Source: Myxococcales bacterium
GTDB lineage: Bacteria; Myxococcota_A; Polyangia; Polyangiales; Polyangiaceae
Assembly: GCA_903642325.1 (NCBI GenBank)
Contig: CAHJWM010000017.1
Span: 1-64,000 of the forward strand
Direction: 5' to 3'
DNA: 64,000 nt
The notes beneath the pieces are model-generated. The model was not told the origin of the DNA and made no database searches. It worked only from the letters and a program-made list of their open reading frames with translations. This document shows positions 45,091 to 64,000 of the stretch, one piece after another. How positions within the stretch are numbered: position 1 is the first letter of the stretch; each line of letters opens with the position of its first letter. The translations under genes and the position numbers were made by a program.

Positions 45091-46434
45091 TTAGCCACTC
45101 CGGAGCTTCTTGAAGCGCGATCCATACTGCGCATCATCGGAGATTTCGACCACCCTGGGCGTCTGATAGGCCGCCATACGGGGGCGGCAGAATGCGCCCA
45201 AGCGGCGCTTGAAATCAGGTAAAGGCTCGGGCGACTTCAAATTGAAGCGCGCGCTCACGACCTGACCCATCATCGGGTGAGGTCTGCCGAACACCGCGAC
45301 GTCTTGCACGTTGTCCATCTGCAATAACAGGTTCTCGACCTCGGCTGGGTAGACCTTCTGCCCGCCAACGTTGATCAAGTCGCTGACCCGACCCAAAATC
45401 CGCAAGTACTCGCCATCGACTTCGACTGCGTCTTGGGTGTTCAGCCAGCCGTCCTCGTCGATCAGGTCCGGAGCGTTCAAATAACCAAGCATGGCGGCGT
45501 CCGCTTTCACCCACAAAATATGGTCGATGATTTTGGTTCGAAAGCCATCGCCGGTGAACTTGATCCAGAGCGACTCGGAGTCACGCGACCGTGAACGCAA
45601 CACCCCCAGCTCCGACATGCCGTATGTCTGCACCAAGGCCACGTCGGGCAAGATTTCGTGCAGCTTTTTCAGTGTGCTCGGCGGCATGGGCTCGGTGCCG
45701 TACGCGATCACCTTCAAAGAAGAGAAGTCATATTGCTCGAACAGCTGGGAAATGAGCCACAAGTTCAAAAACGTGGGTGACGTGGGCAGGGTGTGCACGC
45801 GGTACTTTTCGATCGCCCGAGACACCGCCTCTGGGTCGCGGGTCGGAACCGTGACCATGGTTCCGCCGCTGGCGAGCGCATTGAACAACGTGTCGATACC
45901 CCCGATGTGATCGAACAACAGGAACGTGAGCGTGGTCTTCCGCCTTCTGGGCTTATGGAATTTCTCCAGCAGAGCCACCAGATCGTGCAGGATTGCTTTG
46001 GGCTTGCCGGTCGAGCCGGAAGAAAAGATGACCAGGCCGGCGTGCTCGCGCGCAATCAACTTCTTGGTGACGGCGTTCGTTACGGTGCGGGGAAACTCAT
46101 GGAACGTGTACGCGTCGGCTGCATCGAACACCACCAGAAGTCGCGCCTCCGCGATGTCCAAGAACTGCTCCCGCTGGCTGCGCAGCAGCGGCGTGAGCGG
46201 AACGCAGACGGCTCCGAGCCTCAGCAGCGCAATTAGCGCGGCGCACGTGTTCGGCGAAAAGTTGCCCTCCACCGCAACGACCTGGCCTGGTCCGACCTGA
46301 CGCGCAGATAGCTCTTCGTGCCAGGCGTCCGCGAGCTTGGCGAGCTCGCGATAGCTCGTGACCGTGTCGCTCCAAACCAGAGCCGGGGCGTCACCCCAGG
46401 CGACGATTCGCTCGAACAGCCAGGGCGCGATCAT
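45091..46434 (-). CDS. AMP-dependent ligase (acyl-CoA/acyl-ACP synthetase type)
   Basis: 447 residues of the ANL superfamily: ATP-binding LVIFSSGSTGKPKAILHD, QTYGMSELG, and DGWLNTQDAVEVDGEYLRILGR with the hinge Asp. The C-terminal GQVVSARF and YGSRFKKLRSG carry the probable catalytic Lys. At 447 residues it is about 60-100 shorter than most acyl-CoA synthetases, with a reduced N-terminal lobe. It is followed, on the same strand in order of transcription, by nothing; upstream lie an SDR and an ACP gene, so it probably charges a carboxylic acid onto that ACP. Spacing to the SDR is 23 bases. The acid is unknown. Base composition seems lower in GC than surrounding genes. Confidence 0.9.
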   Translation of the reverse strand: MIAPWLFERIVAWGDAPALVWSDTVTSYRELAKLADAWHEELSARQVGPGQVVAVEGNFSPNTCAALIALLRLGAVCVPLTPLLRSQREQFLDIAEARLLVVFDAADAYTFHEFPRTVTNAVTKKLIAREHAGLVIFSSGSTGKPKAILHDLVALLEKFHKPRRRKTTLTFLLFDHIGGIDTLFNALASGGTMVTVPTRDPEAVSRAIEKYRVHTLPTSPTFLNLWLISQLFEQYDFSSLKVIAYGTEPMPPSTLKKLHEILPDVALVQTYGMSELGVLRSRSRDSESLWIKFTGDGFRTKIIDHILWVKADAAMLGYLNAPDLIDEDGWLNTQDAVEVDGEYLRILGRVSDLINVGGQKVYPAEVENLLLQMDNVQDVAVFGRPHPMMGQVVSARFNLKSPEPLPDFKRRLGAFCRPRMAAYQTPRVVEISDDAQYGSRFKKLRSG

Positions 46435-46457
46435 GGGCGGGAACGCTCGCCTCCCGC

Positions 46458-47177
46458 TCAGCTCACGCCGCCTAGATAAATGACTTGGCCGGTAATGTTA
46501 TCGCTACCAGGGCTGATGAAAAAGTCGCACACATTGGCGCAATCGAAGTTCGTGCCCAAGCGCTTGATCGCGAGGTTATTGACTACGGCGTCGATCTTGT
46601 CCTGAGGCACGCCGCGAATCATGTCGGTCATGATTGGAGTCGCGCCGAACGAGTTGCAAGTGATACCCCACTGGCCGAGCTCGAACGCCAAGATACGCGT
46701 AAACGTGACGACCGCGGCCTTGGAAGCGGCGTACATTGCTTCGCCCGCGAGCGCGATTGGCGCAACGATCGTGGTAAAGTTTACGATTCGGCCGTACTTA
46801 CGACGAATCATCACTTTCGCCGCGTCCCGACACACGAGCATGGTGCCCGTGACGTTGACCGACAGCATGCGGTCAGCGGTCTTTGCTGGCGTCAATAGAA
46901 TGTGATTCATGCTGGCGATGGCCGCGTTGTTCAGCACCACGTCGATCCGGCCATGGCGCTTCGTCATGTCGGCGACCATCAAGCGTACGGCACGTTCATC
47001 GGCCACGTCCACCTCGTGATGCGTGTACGCCGGATCTTTGAGATCACTATCACCGCGGCTGCAGCCTTCGACCCAGTAGCCCTTGCTCAGGTAGTACTCA
47101 CACAAGTAACGACCGATGCCTTTTCGACTGCCGGTGATCAACATCACCGGGCGCTCGCTCGTTACGTTCTCCCTCAT
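46458..47177 (-). CDS. Short-chain dehydrogenase/reductase
   Basis: 239 residues. Rossmann motif TGSRKGIG near residue 16, NNAAIASMNH (NAG-type) and the catalytic YAASK. The catalytic serine of FabG-like SDRs aligns with the second T of NFTTIVAP, thirteen residues before the Tyr, so the Ser-Tyr-Lys triad is Thr-Tyr-Lys here. Otherwise it resembles FabG-type 3-oxoacyl-ACP reductases, fitting the adjacent ACP. Overlaps the ACP stop by four bases (ATGA). Probable role: reducing a keto group on an ACP-bound or related substrate. Confidence 0.93.
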   Translation of the reverse strand: MRENVTSERPVMLITGSRKGIGRYLCEYYLSKGYWVEGCSRGDSDLKDPAYTHHEVDVADERAVRLMVADMTKRHGRIDVVLNNAAIASMNHILLTPAKTADRMLSVNVTGTMLVCRDAAKVMIRRKYGRIVNFTTIVAPIALAGEAMYAASKAAVVTFTRILAFELGQWGITCNSFGATPIMTDMIRGVPQDKIDAVVNNLAIKRLGTNFDCANVCDFFISPGSDNITGQVIYLGGVS

Positions 47178-47482
47178 GCTGCACCCAGCTCGGCCACCGT
47201 CGCCAGGACGTGATCGGCCAAGACGCCGACGGTGCGGAACGGGCTGTTGCGCGCGGACATCGCCTTGTCGTTGGCCAACGTAACGGACGCGCCATGCTCG
47301 GCCTCGACCCGGTGCTCGACCTCCACGATCAGCGAAACGACGCCCAGCGAGTCCAGGACCGCGTCCTTACCGACCAACACGGTGTCTTCGTTCAAAGTAG
47401 CGGGCGCGCTATCCCCGGTTTGCGCGAATACTTCTTGAATGCTCGCAACGACGATACTGACTGCGGATGAACGTTCAATCAT
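47174..47482 (-). CDS. Acyl carrier protein
   Basis: 102 residues from the ATG at 47482; the frame extends upstream but that part is not ACP-like. Helical and acidic, with the phosphopantetheine attachment Ser in LDSLGVVSLIVEVEHRVEAEHG. Slightly longer than type II fatty-acid ACPs (about 80 aa), with a variable C-terminal extension (PFRTVGVLADHVLATVAEL). As first gene of the ACP-SDR-ligase operon it probably carries the acyl or aminoacyl unit made and modified by the other two. Confidence 0.86.
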   Translation of the reverse strand: MIERSSAVSIVVASIQEVFAQTGDSAPATLNEDTVLVGKDAVLDSLGVVSLIVEVEHRVEAEHGASVTLANDKAMSARNSPFRTVGVLADHVLATVAELGAA

Positions 47483-47981
47483 TGGACTTGAGCTCGATAC
47501 GTGAAGGCACGTTGATATTAGCGCCATTTCGCAATAGAACCGGTACGGTTTCGAGTCAGCGACACGTTGCATGGAACGACCTTCGCCACGACGAATGAAG
47601 CTCCAATCAAGGATCCACGCCGATTTTGCCGCTTGGCAGAATGGCCCACCGGGCTCAGAGCGAGGATGCCATGGCCAACGTTCGGCGCACGCATCGCTTG
47701 GGCCGTTGCCACGCACGCCGCGTACCGTTCAGCCTGACCGTTGCGGGCGGAGCGTGCGAGCCTGAGGAAAAGCGGAGCATCGCCTTGGTCGGCGCGCACC
47801 TCTGTGGTCAGATCACGAAACACTGGGCTCAACGCCCAGATATCCAGAATCGTAAGCCAACGCCGAGACCAAGCCGCGCGCCCTCGGATTATCGATTTCT
47901 CGCCCGGGAAACCTCGCAGCGTCTAGACTTCCTTTCTTTGCGGCGCGACCGGGAAAGCCTTTTGGCCGACCCTCGTCTACG
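47483..47981. other. Intergenic region between the ACP operon and the acyltransferase gene
   Basis: About 500 bases with lower GC than the neighbourhood and only short, unsupported open frames. It contains small dyads (AACCG-GTA-CGGTT, TGGGC-TCAAC-GCCCA) of no clear meaning. It holds the promoters of the two divergent units and may include decayed DNA. Confidence 0.5.
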
Positions 47982-59414: not shown

Positions 59415-59743
59415 TGCGCTGCGGCGTTTGCCTGAAATATCTGGCGTTCGTTGCCGGTGGCGTCATGGCCTGCGGCGGAGCTTCGTGTGGTGGAAAGGAT
59501 GTTACGTCGATTTGCCCGAGCCTTCCGCGCTTTGGCGACTCTGCAGTCGGAGATAGTTCGAACGCGGGCGCGGCCGGCGATGACGCGCAGGCCGCGCTTG
59601 CTCGTGCCATGGACGCGGGCTGTGTGACTGCGCCGATGTCCTCTGCCAACGGCGGCGGGGACGGCGGCATGGGCCGCGCCTCGAACAACGGCCACGATGC
59701 AGGCGCGGGTGGAAGCAGTGCCGGTGCGGCAGGACAGGATTGA
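59414..59743 (+). CDS. Small predicted lipoprotein
   Basis: 109 residues with ATG sharing one base with the upstream stop (TGATG). The signal segment CLKYLAFVAGGVMAC gives a lipobox at VMAC, Cys19. The mature part is Gly/Ala/Ser-rich (GNGG.. GGDGGMGR..) with a CPSLPRFGD element and few hydrophobic residues. It might function with the AgmX/PglI protein upstream, with which it is surely co-transcribed. The stop overlaps the truA start region. No known family. Confidence 0.6.
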   Translation: MRCGVCLKYLAFVAGGVMACGGASCGGKDVTSICPSLPRFGDSAVGDSSNAGAAGDDAQAALARAMDAGCVTAPMSSANGGGDGGMGRASNNGHDAGAGGSSAGAAGQD

Positions 59744-60650
59744 GGAAGACCGCGGCGCGGCTGTCGTCAGTGCTTCCGACGCGCAGCGCCCACGAGCAGG
59801 CGCGCGCTTTGGTATCTTGCTGACCGTTGCCTACGACGGTCGCCGGTTTTCTGGATGGGCGAGACAAGCCAATGCGCGCAGCATCGCGGGCGAGCTCGAC
59901 GGCGCGATCACCGCCATCGATCCCAAGGCGAGTGCCACGCGCGGGCTGAGCCGCACCGACGCGGGCGTACACGCCCGTGAGCAGCTCGCGGCGTTCGACA
60001 CCGATAAGGACATTGCGCTCCGCGGCTGGGTCCTGGCCATTTCACAGCACTTGCCCGACGAGATCGCGATCGTGCGTGCGGCGCGCGTTCCGCCGGGGTT
60101 CGATGCGCGTCGTCACCTCACGCGCAAGGTGTATCGTTATACGGTCCTTCACAGCCTGGTCCGCGATCCCTTTTTAGAGGGCCGGGCCTGGCGCATCCTG
60201 GAGAGGTTCAACCACTCCGACCTGAACGCAATTGCGCAGTCCCTGGTCGGCACGCATGACTTCGCCGCATTCCGTGGCGCGGCCGACACACGCACGGACA
60301 CGGTGCGACAGATATTTCGCATCGACGTGGGCCCAGCGCATAGCGATCACCGCATCACCCTGATCGATGTCGAAGGCGACAAGTTCTTGTACAATATGGT
60401 GCGAATCATCGTGGGGACGCTGATTGACATCGGCCGCGAACGGCGCCCGAAGGACGCGCTCGTCCGTGCGCTCGCGAGTCATGCGCGAACGGATCTAGGC
60501 ATCACGGCTCCGCCAGACGGCCTCTGTCTAGAACGTGTCACGCTCGACGCGTGGCAACTAACCGAGCCCTCTCTGTCTGAACGACGGAGCGCGCCCGACG
60601 AAGCGCCGCTCGGCTTGAATAAGCTCGTTTCCTGGCCGCCCGCGCATTGA
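59697..60650 (+). CDS. truA: tRNA pseudouridine(38-40) synthase
   Basis: Modifies U38-U40 in the anticodon arm of tRNAs. 317 residues if starting at the ATG 59697; a GTG at 59724 is an alternative that reduces the overlap with the small lipoprotein. The first 40 residues are extra compared with most TruA. Core: LLTVAYDGRRFSGWARQAN, the catalytic Asp in GLSRTDAGVHAREQ, and FDARRHLTRKVYRYTVLH, VGTHDFAAFRGA and FLYNMVRIIVGTLIDIGRER. The C-terminal 30 residues are also non-conserved. Spt follows after a structured 130-base gap. Confidence 0.94.
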   Translation: MQARVEAVPVRQDRIEEDRGAAVVSASDAQRPRAGARFGILLTVAYDGRRFSGWARQANARSIAGELDGAITAIDPKASATRGLSRTDAGVHAREQLAAFDTDKDIALRGWVLAISQHLPDEIAIVRAARVPPGFDARRHLTRKVYRYTVLHSLVRDPFLEGRAWRILERFNHSDLNAIAQSLVGTHDFAAFRGAADTRTDTVRQIFRIDVGPAHSDHRITLIDVEGDKFLYNMVRIIVGTLIDIGRERRPKDALVRALASHARTDLGITAPPDGLCLERVTLDAWQLTEPSLSERRSAPDEAPLGLNKLVSWPPAH

Positions 60651-60780: not shown

Positions 60781-62397
60781 ATGGGCCTCAAGCAAAAGAT
60801 CGTCGACCGAAGCAAGCAGGCACTTCTTCGTCCAAGCGTCTTGCGCTGGGTCACCGACGATCGCGTCATGAAGGCGACGGAGGGTTTCATGGACGCACGG
60901 ACACGCGTCCGTGACGCGTGGAACGTGCTCTTGAACGGCAACGAGCTCCCGAACATCGACCCTGCCCTCGACGAGCACATCGGCCAGTCCGCGCCCGAGG
61001 TCACGACCCGCAAAGCGGTGAACGGGAGCAACGGAAACGGGAGCAGCGGCCACGGCGTCAATGGCGCCAGCGGGCACGCCTCCGAGATCAACGGGCATGC
61101 CACCACGAACGGCGCGCGCATCAACATGACCGACCGAGAAGGGTCGTCGGACATGGGTGAGTCGCTGAAAGAGCGCGGCAGCCTCGCCAATATCGGCGGC
61201 AAAGACGTATTCGAGAAGTGCTTCAAATTCATGGCGGCGGACAACGCCCGCAAGATGGGCATCTATCCCTTCTTCCGCCCGCTCGATTTCGCGGACGGTC
61301 CAGAAGCGCAGATCAACGGCAAACGCGTGGTGATGTTCGGATCGAACAACTACTTGGGCCTCACCACCCACCCCAAGGTGCGGGACGCCGCCAAAGCCGC
61401 GATCGACAAATATGGCACCAGCATGACCGGCTCACGCCTGGTCAACGGCTCGATGCGCCTGCATGAAGAGTTCGAAGAAAAGCTCGCCAAGTGGTTCAAC
61501 AAGGAATCCGCGCTGGTGTTCACGACGGGTTACCAGGTCAACATCGCGACCTGCGCCGCGCTGCTTTCGAACAAGCAGTCGGTAGCGGTGATCGACCGCA
61601 ACGTGCACGCTTCGCTGTACGATGGCACCCGGCTCGGGCAATCCGCGGGCGCCCGGCTCGTTCGCTATCGACACAATGATGCGGAATCACTCGATAAAGC
61701 GCTGGAGAAGCTGGAGGCGGGGGACGGCGCGTTCGTCCTCACCGATGGCGTCTTCAGCGCCGAGGGCGAGATCGCGAAGCTCGACGAGATCGTGCCCATC
61801 GTCAAAAAACACGGCGCGCGCCTGTTCGTGGACGACGCCCACGCGTTGGGGGTGATCGGGCCGGGCGGCATGGGCACGGCCGCGCACTTTGGTTTGGTGG
61901 ATCAGGTCGACCTGATGGGTGGCACGTTTTCGAAATCGTTGGCCAGTATCGGTGGCTGGCTGGTGGGTGAGCGCAAAGTGCTCGACTACATCCGTCATTT
62001 CGCGCCTTCCTTCATGTTCGCCGCCAGCGCCGCGCCGCCTTCCGTCGCTGCCGCCATGGCCGCCTTCGACGTCATGCGCGAAGAAACGTGGCGCATCGAC
62101 AAGCTGCGCGAAAACTTCACCTATATGCGGGACGAGCTCACCAAACTGGGCTTCGAGCTCGGCCACACGCAAACCGCCGTCATTCCCATCTACATTCGCC
62201 AAGATTTGCGCACGATCATGATGTGGCGAGATCTATTGGAAGAATACGGCATTTATACCAACCCCTTCATTTCGCCAGGGGTTCCGCCGAAGAGCGCGAT
62301 GCTCCGCACCAGCTACATGGCGACGCACGACCGGCACCATTTGGATCGCGCGCTCGAGGCTTTTCAAAAGGTCGGCAAGAAGTACGGCGTGATTTAG
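60781..62397 (+). CDS. spt: Serine palmitoyltransferase (first enzyme of sphingolipid synthesis) with N-terminal extension
   Basis: PLP enzyme condensing L-serine with a fatty acyl thioester to 3-ketodihydrosphingosine. 538 residues against about 400 for typical bacterial Spt. The alpha-oxoamine synthase core starts near 140: FGSNNYLGLTTHPKV, TGYQVNIATCAAL, DRNVHASLYDGTR, the PLP-His stacking region, and VDDAHALGVIGPGGMGT. The PLP Lys is residue 385 in GGTFSKSLASIGGW, and the end is PPKSAMLRTSYMATHD. The ATG is preceded by a GGAG. The extra N-terminus has a helical start (VLRWVTDDRVMKATEGFMDARTRVRDAWNVLL) and an Asn-Gly-Ser linker (about 80-115). Followed by bcerS and cerR, which together fix the reaction as sphingolipid rather than biotin or heme synthesis. 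Confidence 0.9.
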   Translation: MGLKQKIVDRSKQALLRPSVLRWVTDDRVMKATEGFMDARTRVRDAWNVLLNGNELPNIDPALDEHIGQSAPEVTTRKAVNGSNGNGSSGHGVNGASGHASEINGHATTNGARINMTDREGSSDMGESLKERGSLANIGGKDVFEKCFKFMAADNARKMGIYPFFRPLDFADGPEAQINGKRVVMFGSNNYLGLTTHPKVRDAAKAAIDKYGTSMTGSRLVNGSMRLHEEFEEKLAKWFNKESALVFTTGYQVNIATCAALLSNKQSVAVIDRNVHASLYDGTRLGQSAGARLVRYRHNDAESLDKALEKLEAGDGAFVLTDGVFSAEGEIAKLDEIVPIVKKHGARLFVDDAHALGVIGPGGMGTAAHFGLVDQVDLMGGTFSKSLASIGGWLVGERKVLDYIRHFAPSFMFAASAAPPSVAAAMAAFDVMREETWRIDKLRENFTYMRDELTKLGFELGHTQTAVIPIYIRQDLRTIMMWRDLLEEYGIYTNPFISPGVPPKSAMLRTSYMATHDRHHLDRALEAFQKVGKKYGVI

Positions 62398-62409
62398 GGC
62401 GGAGGCTGG

Positions 62410-62500
62410 GTTCGAGAAGCTTCGAACGCAGTACCGAGCGTCGCGGTGAGCTCGTGCCCGACGAGCTCGGTGTGGGCGCGGCCGCCGCCAACGGCGGCGG
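62410..62500 (+). promoter_or_regulatory. Three consecutive hairpins between spt and bcerS
   Basis: GTTCGA-GAAGCT-TCGAAC (62410-62427), GAGCTCGT-GCCCG-ACGAGCTC (62448-62468) and CCGCCGCC-AAC-GGCGGCGG (62482-62500) sit in the 181-base gap. All stems are perfect. No T tract follows. They could attenuate, terminate in part, or stabilise the spt message relative to bcerS. Confidence 0.45.
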
Positions 62501-62578
62501 TCGCCAGCGGTGGCCCCCGCCCGATGCTTAGACCGCCGATTGACGCGACTTGCGGCTCAACGTTAGCTGCGGAGCTCG

Positions 62579-63706
62579 ATGACTCTTACGCTGAAGCAAA
62601 GCGCGATCGGATCAAAGGTCCCCGACTTCCTCGATGTCGTGGATTACATTTACAAGCGCGATTCGAACTATGTCCGACCCTTGGACATGGACATGAAGAA
62701 TCGATTGAGCTTGAAGAACCCATTTTTCGAGCACGGCGATGGCGTGATCTTCACGGCGTATCGTAACGGCTTTTGCGTGGGGCGTTGCACGGCGCAAATC
62801 GATCGCGGGCACCTTGCCCGTTACAAGGACAGTGCGGGGTTCTTCGGCTTCTTCGACACCGTCGACGACGCAGCGGTCGCAAAGCTACTGCTGGACGCGG
62901 CAGCGCGCTGGCTGAGCGAACGAGGCATGAAGAAAATCCGTGGCCCGTTCTCGTTGTCGATCAATGAAGAGCTGGGCTGCCTAGTCGAAGGTTTCGATAC
63001 TCCGCCGATGGTGATGATGCCGCATCACATGCCCTACCAAGGCTCGCTCATCGAGCAGTGCGGGTTCGAAAAGCTGAAAGACGCTTACGCTTGGCGTTAC
63101 AAGGTCGGCAACATTCCGGAACGCGCTCGCAAAGCCCATGACGAGGTCGCCGCGCTGCCCGAGGTCAAAACACGGCACATCGATCTGCGCAACCTCGACC
63201 AAGAAATGCGGACCGTGATGGACGTTTTCAATGACGCGTGGAGCGAAAATTGGAGCTTCGTGCCGTTCACGCAGAAGGAGCTGTCGAAGCTAGCCGCCGA
63301 CCTCAAGCTAATCGCGATTCCGCAATTGACGTTCATTGCGGAGATAGACGGCGAGGCGGCCGCAGTGGCCGTGGCGCTGCCAAATGTGAATGAGTTGATC
63401 CGCGACATGAAGGGCAAGCTCGGCCCACTCGAGCTTGGCAAGTTGCTCTGGCGCCTGAAGGTCGTGGGGCCGAAAACGGTGCGTTTGGCCATCCTAGGCA
63501 TTCGCAAAAAGTATCGGAACCAGCGCAAATACGCCGGTCTCAGCACGTACCTATATGCCGAAATGAACGAATCCGGCCGAAAGCTCGGAGTCGATTGGGG
63601 CGAGCTGTCTTGGACCCTCGAAGACAACGGCCCCGTGAACGTGGCCATCCGCATGATGGGCGGAAAGATTTACAAGAAGTATCGCATCTACGAGAAGAAC
63701 CTATGA
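62579..63706 (+). CDS. bcerS: Bacterial ceramide synthase (GNAT-like N-acyltransferase)
   Basis: Acylates the amine of the long-chain base; in Caulobacter this occurs before reduction, unlike in eukaryotes. 375 residues, no TM. Features: KVPDFLDVVDYIYKRDSNYVRP start, GRCTAQIDRGH, AGFFGFFDTVDDAAVAKLLLDAAARWL, KIRGPFSLSINEELGCLVEGFDTPP and HMPYQGSLIEQCGFEK in the first GNAT-like half, then FNDAWSENWSFVPFTQKEL and the conserved C-terminal DWGELSWTLEDNGPVNVAIRMMGGKIYKKYRIYEK. These match the N-acyltransferase family of bacterial ceramide synthases. ATG with GGAG upstream. Overlaps the next start (ATGA). Confidence 0.85.
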   Translation: MTLTLKQSAIGSKVPDFLDVVDYIYKRDSNYVRPLDMDMKNRLSLKNPFFEHGDGVIFTAYRNGFCVGRCTAQIDRGHLARYKDSAGFFGFFDTVDDAAVAKLLLDAAARWLSERGMKKIRGPFSLSINEELGCLVEGFDTPPMVMMPHHMPYQGSLIEQCGFEKLKDAYAWRYKVGNIPERARKAHDEVAALPEVKTRHIDLRNLDQEMRTVMDVFNDAWSENWSFVPFTQKELSKLAADLKLIAIPQLTFIAEIDGEAAAVAVALPNVNELIRDMKGKLGPLELGKLLWRLKVVGPKTVRLAILGIRKKYRNQRKYAGLSTYLYAEMNESGRKLGVDWGELSWTLEDNGPVNVAIRMMGGKIYKKYRIYEKNL

Positions 63707-64000
63707 CCATCCTCGTTACTGGCGGCACGGGTTTCTTGGGGTCGCACGTGGTCGAGCTGCTTTCCCAGATGGGGCGTCCGGTGCGGGCCTTGGTGCGGCG
63801 CTCGAGTGACACCAAGTTTTTGCGCAGCCTCGCCGACGTGGAGCTGGTTGACGGCTCGGTCGATGATCGCGCGAGCTTGGAACGCGCGGTCATCGGCGTG
63901 ACCGCGGTCGTGCATTCAGCGGGCCTGGTGAAAGCGCGCGGTCTCGAAGAATTCATGCGCGTGAACGCGCGTGGCACCGAAAATTTGCTCGAGGCTTGCG
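63703..64000 (+). CDS. cerR: Ceramide reductase (NAD-dependent epimerase/dehydratase family), 3' end outside the window
   Basis: 99 codons of an extended SDR run off the right end. MTILVTGGTGFLGSHVVELL gives the TGxxGxxG motif, then RALVRRSSDTKFLRSL, DVELVDGSVDD (the adenine/ribose-side acidic residue) and AVVHSAGLVKARGLEEFMRVNARGTENLLEAC, as in the NAD(P)-binding half. The catalytic YxxxK lies beyond the window. As the third gene of the spt-bcerS set and in the Caulobacter order, it is most likely CerR, which reduces the 3-keto ceramide. Start overlaps the bcerS stop. Confidence 0.8.
   Translation, partial: MTILVTGGTGFLGSHVVELLSQMGRPVRALVRRSSDTKFLRSLADVELVDGSVDDRASLERAVIGVTAVVHSAGLVKARGLEEFMRVNARGTENLLEAC

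Follow-up and report, generated by a model that had tools for sequence, protein, structure and literature searches.

Two subgroups of bacterial serine palmitoyltransferase (SPT, encoded by spt) have been distinguished, one comprising the enzymes of Bacteroidetes and delta-proteobacteria, Sorangium included, and the other those of Rhodobacteria (PMC9386255). The rhodobacterial Spt prefers acyl-AcpR, and AcpR is charged by AasR; in the same study YghO is listed as the counterpart of Caulobacter CC_1154 (PMC9386255). The ceramide reductase CerR of Caulobacter has been reported as periplasmic and as acting after acylation (PMC11087976), and clusters of Spt, bacterial ceramide synthase (bCerS) and CerR are present in many phyla (PMC11334938). 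The DNA analysed here is a stretch of 64,000 nucleotides (the window). It covers positions 1-64000 of a contig that is 101,140 bases long and belongs to a draft genome of 5.83 Mb. The three genes at the right end of the window very probably encode the core of the dihydroceramide pathway in a myxobacterium of Polyangiaceae type.

The initial annotation had described spt, bcerS and cerR as lying in order on one strand, with a gap of 181 bases between the first two and a 4-base overlap linking cerR to bcerS, and the coordinates of the open reading frames (ORFs) agree with this layout in full (Table 1). The cerR gene is cut by the window edge only, and it is complete on the contig, where it runs from an ATG at 63703 to its end at 64689. 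Two bases past its stop, the ATG of an NnrU-family gene begins a fourth gene in the row on the same strand, to the right of which the genes are on the opposite strand. The truA gene is the neighbour of spt in most of the window-type spt loci of the family, and the order truA-spt-bcerS(-cerR) was seen again in related genomes, indicating that the arrangement is not due to chance. On the basis of the spacing and of this conserved order, we infer that spt, bcerS and cerR form one operon. The NnrU gene was also considered as a conserved member of the operon and was discarded. Its homologue is located on a different contig from spt-bcerS in five congeners, and a role of NnrU in sphingolipid synthesis is therefore doubtful.

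Table 1. Position of the genes and protein regions discussed in the text (window positions unless otherwise stated).
Feature	Location	Strand	Basis
truA-like tRNA pseudouridine synthase, upstream neighbour of spt	59697..60650	+	PF01416
spt, serine palmitoyltransferase, 538 aa	60781..62397	+	NCBIfam SPT models, PDB match, tree, fold, active-site residues
Spt conserved N-terminal extension, residues 1-75	60781..61005	+	Spts of relatives; followed by variable low-complexity linker
Spt catalytic part	about residues 143-538		
bcerS, bacterial ceramide synthase (N-acyltransferase with tandem GNAT fold), 375 aa	62579..63706	+	YghO identity, AlphaFold model, tandem GNAT match
cerR, ceramide reductase (extended SDR), 328 aa	63703..64689 (63703..64000 in window)	+	PF01370, identity to E. 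coli B CerR
NnrU-family membrane protein, 226 aa, right of window	contig 64692-65372	+	PF07298, E=5e-40
Trio of AMP-binding ligase, classical SDR and small protein with ACP-like DSL motif	45091-47716	-	
Second-clade synthase loci	L179-L196, L198, L251, L253, L255-L259, L263		

Comparison with the characterised proteins of the pathway gave a match for each of the three gene products. The acyltransferase, bCerS (ACYLTRANSFERASE), which is encoded beside the reductase, had been proposed as a GNAT-like ceramide synthase. No match was found for it in Pfam or NCBIfam. It shares 38.8% identity over 361 amino acids (E=1e-89) with YghO of E. coli BL21 (E. coli B), and its AlphaFold model (pLDDT 93.6) matches tandem-repeat GNAT enzymes (Foldseek E=1e-14), so the proposal stands. 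The closest relatives of bCerS, at 70-71% identity, belong to metagenome-assembled genomes named Sorangium sp. and Polyangiaceae bacterium, which marks the host as a myxobacterium of Polyangiaceae type. The protein is present in 58 of the 59 relatives. The third product is, as annotated, an extended SDR (PF01370), and it is 32% identical over 295 amino acids to CerR of E. coli B. The acyltransferase and the reductase are thus homologues of YghO and CerR, and the closer resemblance to non-sphingolipid families that would have argued against their assignment did not appear.

The assignment of the first gene to spt draws on its phylogeny and its predicted fold. Maximum-likelihood analysis of 95 sequences grouped Spt with the characterised SPT of Sphingobacterium multivorum and with Spt of E. 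coli B (support 99/97). The S. multivorum enzyme is also the best PDB match (43% identity), and the predicted structure of Spt aligns with it at a TM score of 0.97, normalised by the target. The best NCBIfam model was the Bacteroidetes-type (CFB) serine palmitoyltransferase, with 451 bits, below the 640-bit equivalog cut-off of a model that was built for another phylum, and this limits the subfamily name that Spt can be given and not its superfamily placement. The phylum of the host and the best matches place Spt in the Bacteroidetes/delta-proteobacterial subgroup. The PLP lysine (K385) and the other active-site residues are kept: N189, H276, D351, H354, K385 and R509, which we take to be the PLP- and serine-binding residues, are invariant among 32 homologues and align with N52, H138, D210, H213, K244 and R367 of the S. 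multivorum enzyme.

Spt, BioF, Kbl and HemA belong to a common superfamily, and the first gene might on that account encode a synthase of BioF, Kbl or HemA type, the other two genes then acting in a non-sphingolipid pathway. Nothing beyond the common superfamily speaks for this reading, which deserves hardly any credence: Kbl, BioF and HemA fall outside the Spt group in the tree, with none of the clustering of Spt with 8-amino-7-oxononanoate or 5-aminolevulinate synthases that had been named as a warning sign; the host has a further gene whose product, though on a long branch, is placed with BioF; and the homology of the bcerS and cerR products to YghO and CerR of E. coli B also stands against it. 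The operon could instead make a ceramide analogue, its synthase using alanine (1-deoxyceramides), cysteate (sulfonolipids) or another non-serine amino acid. The amino acid does vary among alpha-oxoamine synthases of this kind, cysteate acyltransferases also match Spt in sequence and fold, and 1-deoxyceramides have been reported from environmental bacteria (PMC11334938). However, the nearest solved enzyme was crystallised with serine, Spt keeps every one of the residues aligned to the S. multivorum positions given above, and the cysteate enzymes score about 100 bits below S. multivorum SPT as matches to Spt, all of which makes a ceramide analogue improbable.

According to the dihydroceramide pathway that we favour, Spt, a member of the serine palmitoyltransferase family, would use serine and a long-chain acyl thioester to form 3-ketosphinganine. 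By the example of their orthologues, bCerS would N-acylate this product and CerR would then reduce the 3-keto group, an order of acylation before reduction that is taken from the Caulobacter model. The final product is probably destined for an outer membrane that has no lipid A, as may also be the case in Sorangium.

The locus departs from the AcpR/AasR-dependent rhodobacterial system in that neither a specialised acyl carrier protein (ACP) nor an acyl-ACP synthetase accompanies spt. No AcpR-like ORF was detected at contig 40-100 kb (E<=1), and the host draft genome contains no good AasR homologue, its best ligase reaching 77 bits and 29% identity. This absence points to acyl-CoA or ordinary acyl-ACP as the likely donor for Spt. 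Many relatives have AasR-like ligases at 340-375 bits; the presence of such ligases was considered as a marker and dropped, since they are common fatty acyl-AMP ligases and not diagnostic. The initial annotation had doubted that the trio of genes at 45-47 kb serves the pathway, and with good reason: its ligase is 21% identical to AasR and its small protein has no Pfam match and no resemblance to AcpR, which rules the trio out as AasR/AcpR. The expectation that headgroup and ACP genes would lie further right failed. No lipid kinase or headgroup transferase was recognised right of cerR up to contig 100 kb, among ORFs with a minimum length of 200 amino acids to contig 80 kb and of 250 amino acids to 100 kb, with a Pfam scan of the nearest genes. 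Reading on to the right, the NnrU-family gene is followed by trpE on the opposite strand. Elsewhere on the contig, an ORF at 97462-98274 (L003: 17463-18275) is a candidate for an encapsulin shell protein, judged from its N-terminal sequence alone.

The window Spt exceeds S. multivorum SPT in length by about 140 N-terminal residues. The first 70 residues or so are conserved in 23 of the 59 relatives, and in all but one of these (22/23) the extension is found at the start of Spt; in the remaining relative, a draft genome, it is found on another short contig. A variable, low-complexity linker separates the extension from the catalytic part. The predicted model places helices at residues 3-15, 18-24 and 27-52, with a confidence that is low to moderate, and leaves the linker unordered. 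The extension was not found on the Spts of other phyla that were compared and, within this comparison, it appears to be confined to the Spts of the host's family. One might guess that it binds the membrane or a partner.

Window-type Spts were identified in 28 genomes and a second clade of alpha-oxoamine synthases, which branches outside the characterised SPTs in the tree, in 27. The two types are mutually exclusive among the 59 relatives, with the exception of one second-clade genome in which a distant sister of the window-type Spt is present as well. Because the type of synthase switches just twice on the bCerS tree, the mutual exclusion may be due to inheritance alone. An AasR-like ligase is located a few kb from the second-clade synthase in about 9 of the 27 genomes. 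An ACP beside this synthase was considered as a rule and rejected, being present in 1 of 19 loci. A 1495-aa protein of genome G027 (L197: 3401-7888, - strand) unites fatty acyl-AMP ligase, phosphopantetheine carrier, luciferase-like monooxygenase and Spt-like synthase domains, and thereby fuses AasR-, ACP- and Spt-like parts in one natural polypeptide. The order spt-bcerS-cerR was also observed on a plasmid of Rubrobacter radiotolerans (Actinomycetota; NZ_CP007515.1 11320-18498; L178: 2911-6278), where the three genes are annotated merely as aminotransferase, hypothetical protein and oxidoreductase.

Within the genus, cerR is found in G000, G003 and G007 and is missing from G001, G002, G004, G005 and G006, that is, from five of the eight species. 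The best match in a search of these five draft genomes had an E value of 4e-27, the matches being other SDRs, and no SDR gene follows bcerS at the corresponding spt-bcerS loci (L151, L152, L154, L155 and L156), at which truA-spt-bcerS is retained. The five congeners with spt-bcerS and without cerR show that the set of three is not obligate. The species of the window is sister to G005/G006 in the bCerS tree, apart from G001/G002/G004, and the presence and absence of cerR requires four changes by parsimony on the Spt tree of 22 genomes. Together, these results indicate that cerR has probably been lost more than once in the genus. As a tentative and rather doubtful suggestion, cerR might be dispensable in a lineage without lipid A genes, the cerR-less species either carrying 3-keto-ceramides or using an unrelated reductase. 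Congeners with and without cerR offer a natural and direct way to test whether acylation or reduction is the last step, a matter in dispute: cerR-less species could accumulate keto-ceramide if acylation precedes reduction.

None of LpxC, LpxK and LpxB was detected in the eight genomes of the genus (drafts of the host and seven congeners), but many other genera of the family and the control genomes gave matches. The three were likewise not found in G026, the Sorangium species of the set, whose DNA is 81-93% identical to that of named Sorangium records. Sorangium cellulosum makes sphingolipids. It is also said to have been described by Keck and colleagues in 2011, in a paper whose title is cited in PMC11324152, as a bacterium without LPS and with unusual outer-membrane lipids. 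The absence of the Lpx genes in G026 agrees with the published lack of LPS in Sorangium. It is plausible that sphingolipids stand in for LPS in the host lineage. A link between the type of Spt and the loss of Lpx genes was also contemplated and abandoned, since the bCerS tree gives it no support. The locus is of interest as a compact ceramide operon that has no special ACP and ligase and comes from a lineage in which lipid A genes are lacking and sphingolipids may assume part of the role of LPS.

In comparison with known systems, the locus adds to a pathway that is already known, and since Spt-bCerS-CerR clusters have been reported from many phyla (PMC11334938), the locus, for which the main claim holds, is ordinary in kind. 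Homologues of Spt, bCerS and CerR are common to the window and to the genes of Caulobacter crescentus and E. coli B (aasR, cerR, acpR, spt, cerS or yghO). Contrary to these, the window locus has no AcpR or AasR, its gene order differs, and its Spt belongs to the other bacterial subgroup and carries an N-terminal extension. The SPT of S. multivorum (PDB 3A2B, 8GUH) shares the fold and the active-site residues of the window enzyme and differs in its shorter N-terminus. Sorangium cellulosum, a member of the same family, has a window-type Spt, bCerS and CerR, and no LpxC, LpxK or LpxB was detected in it; its spt is apart from bcerS-cerR, whereas in the window host all three genes are adjacent. The clusters of many phyla have the same three genes close together, but among the Spts compared, the conserved N-terminal extension is seen only in the window lineage; this extension and the losses of cerR are the parts worth following.
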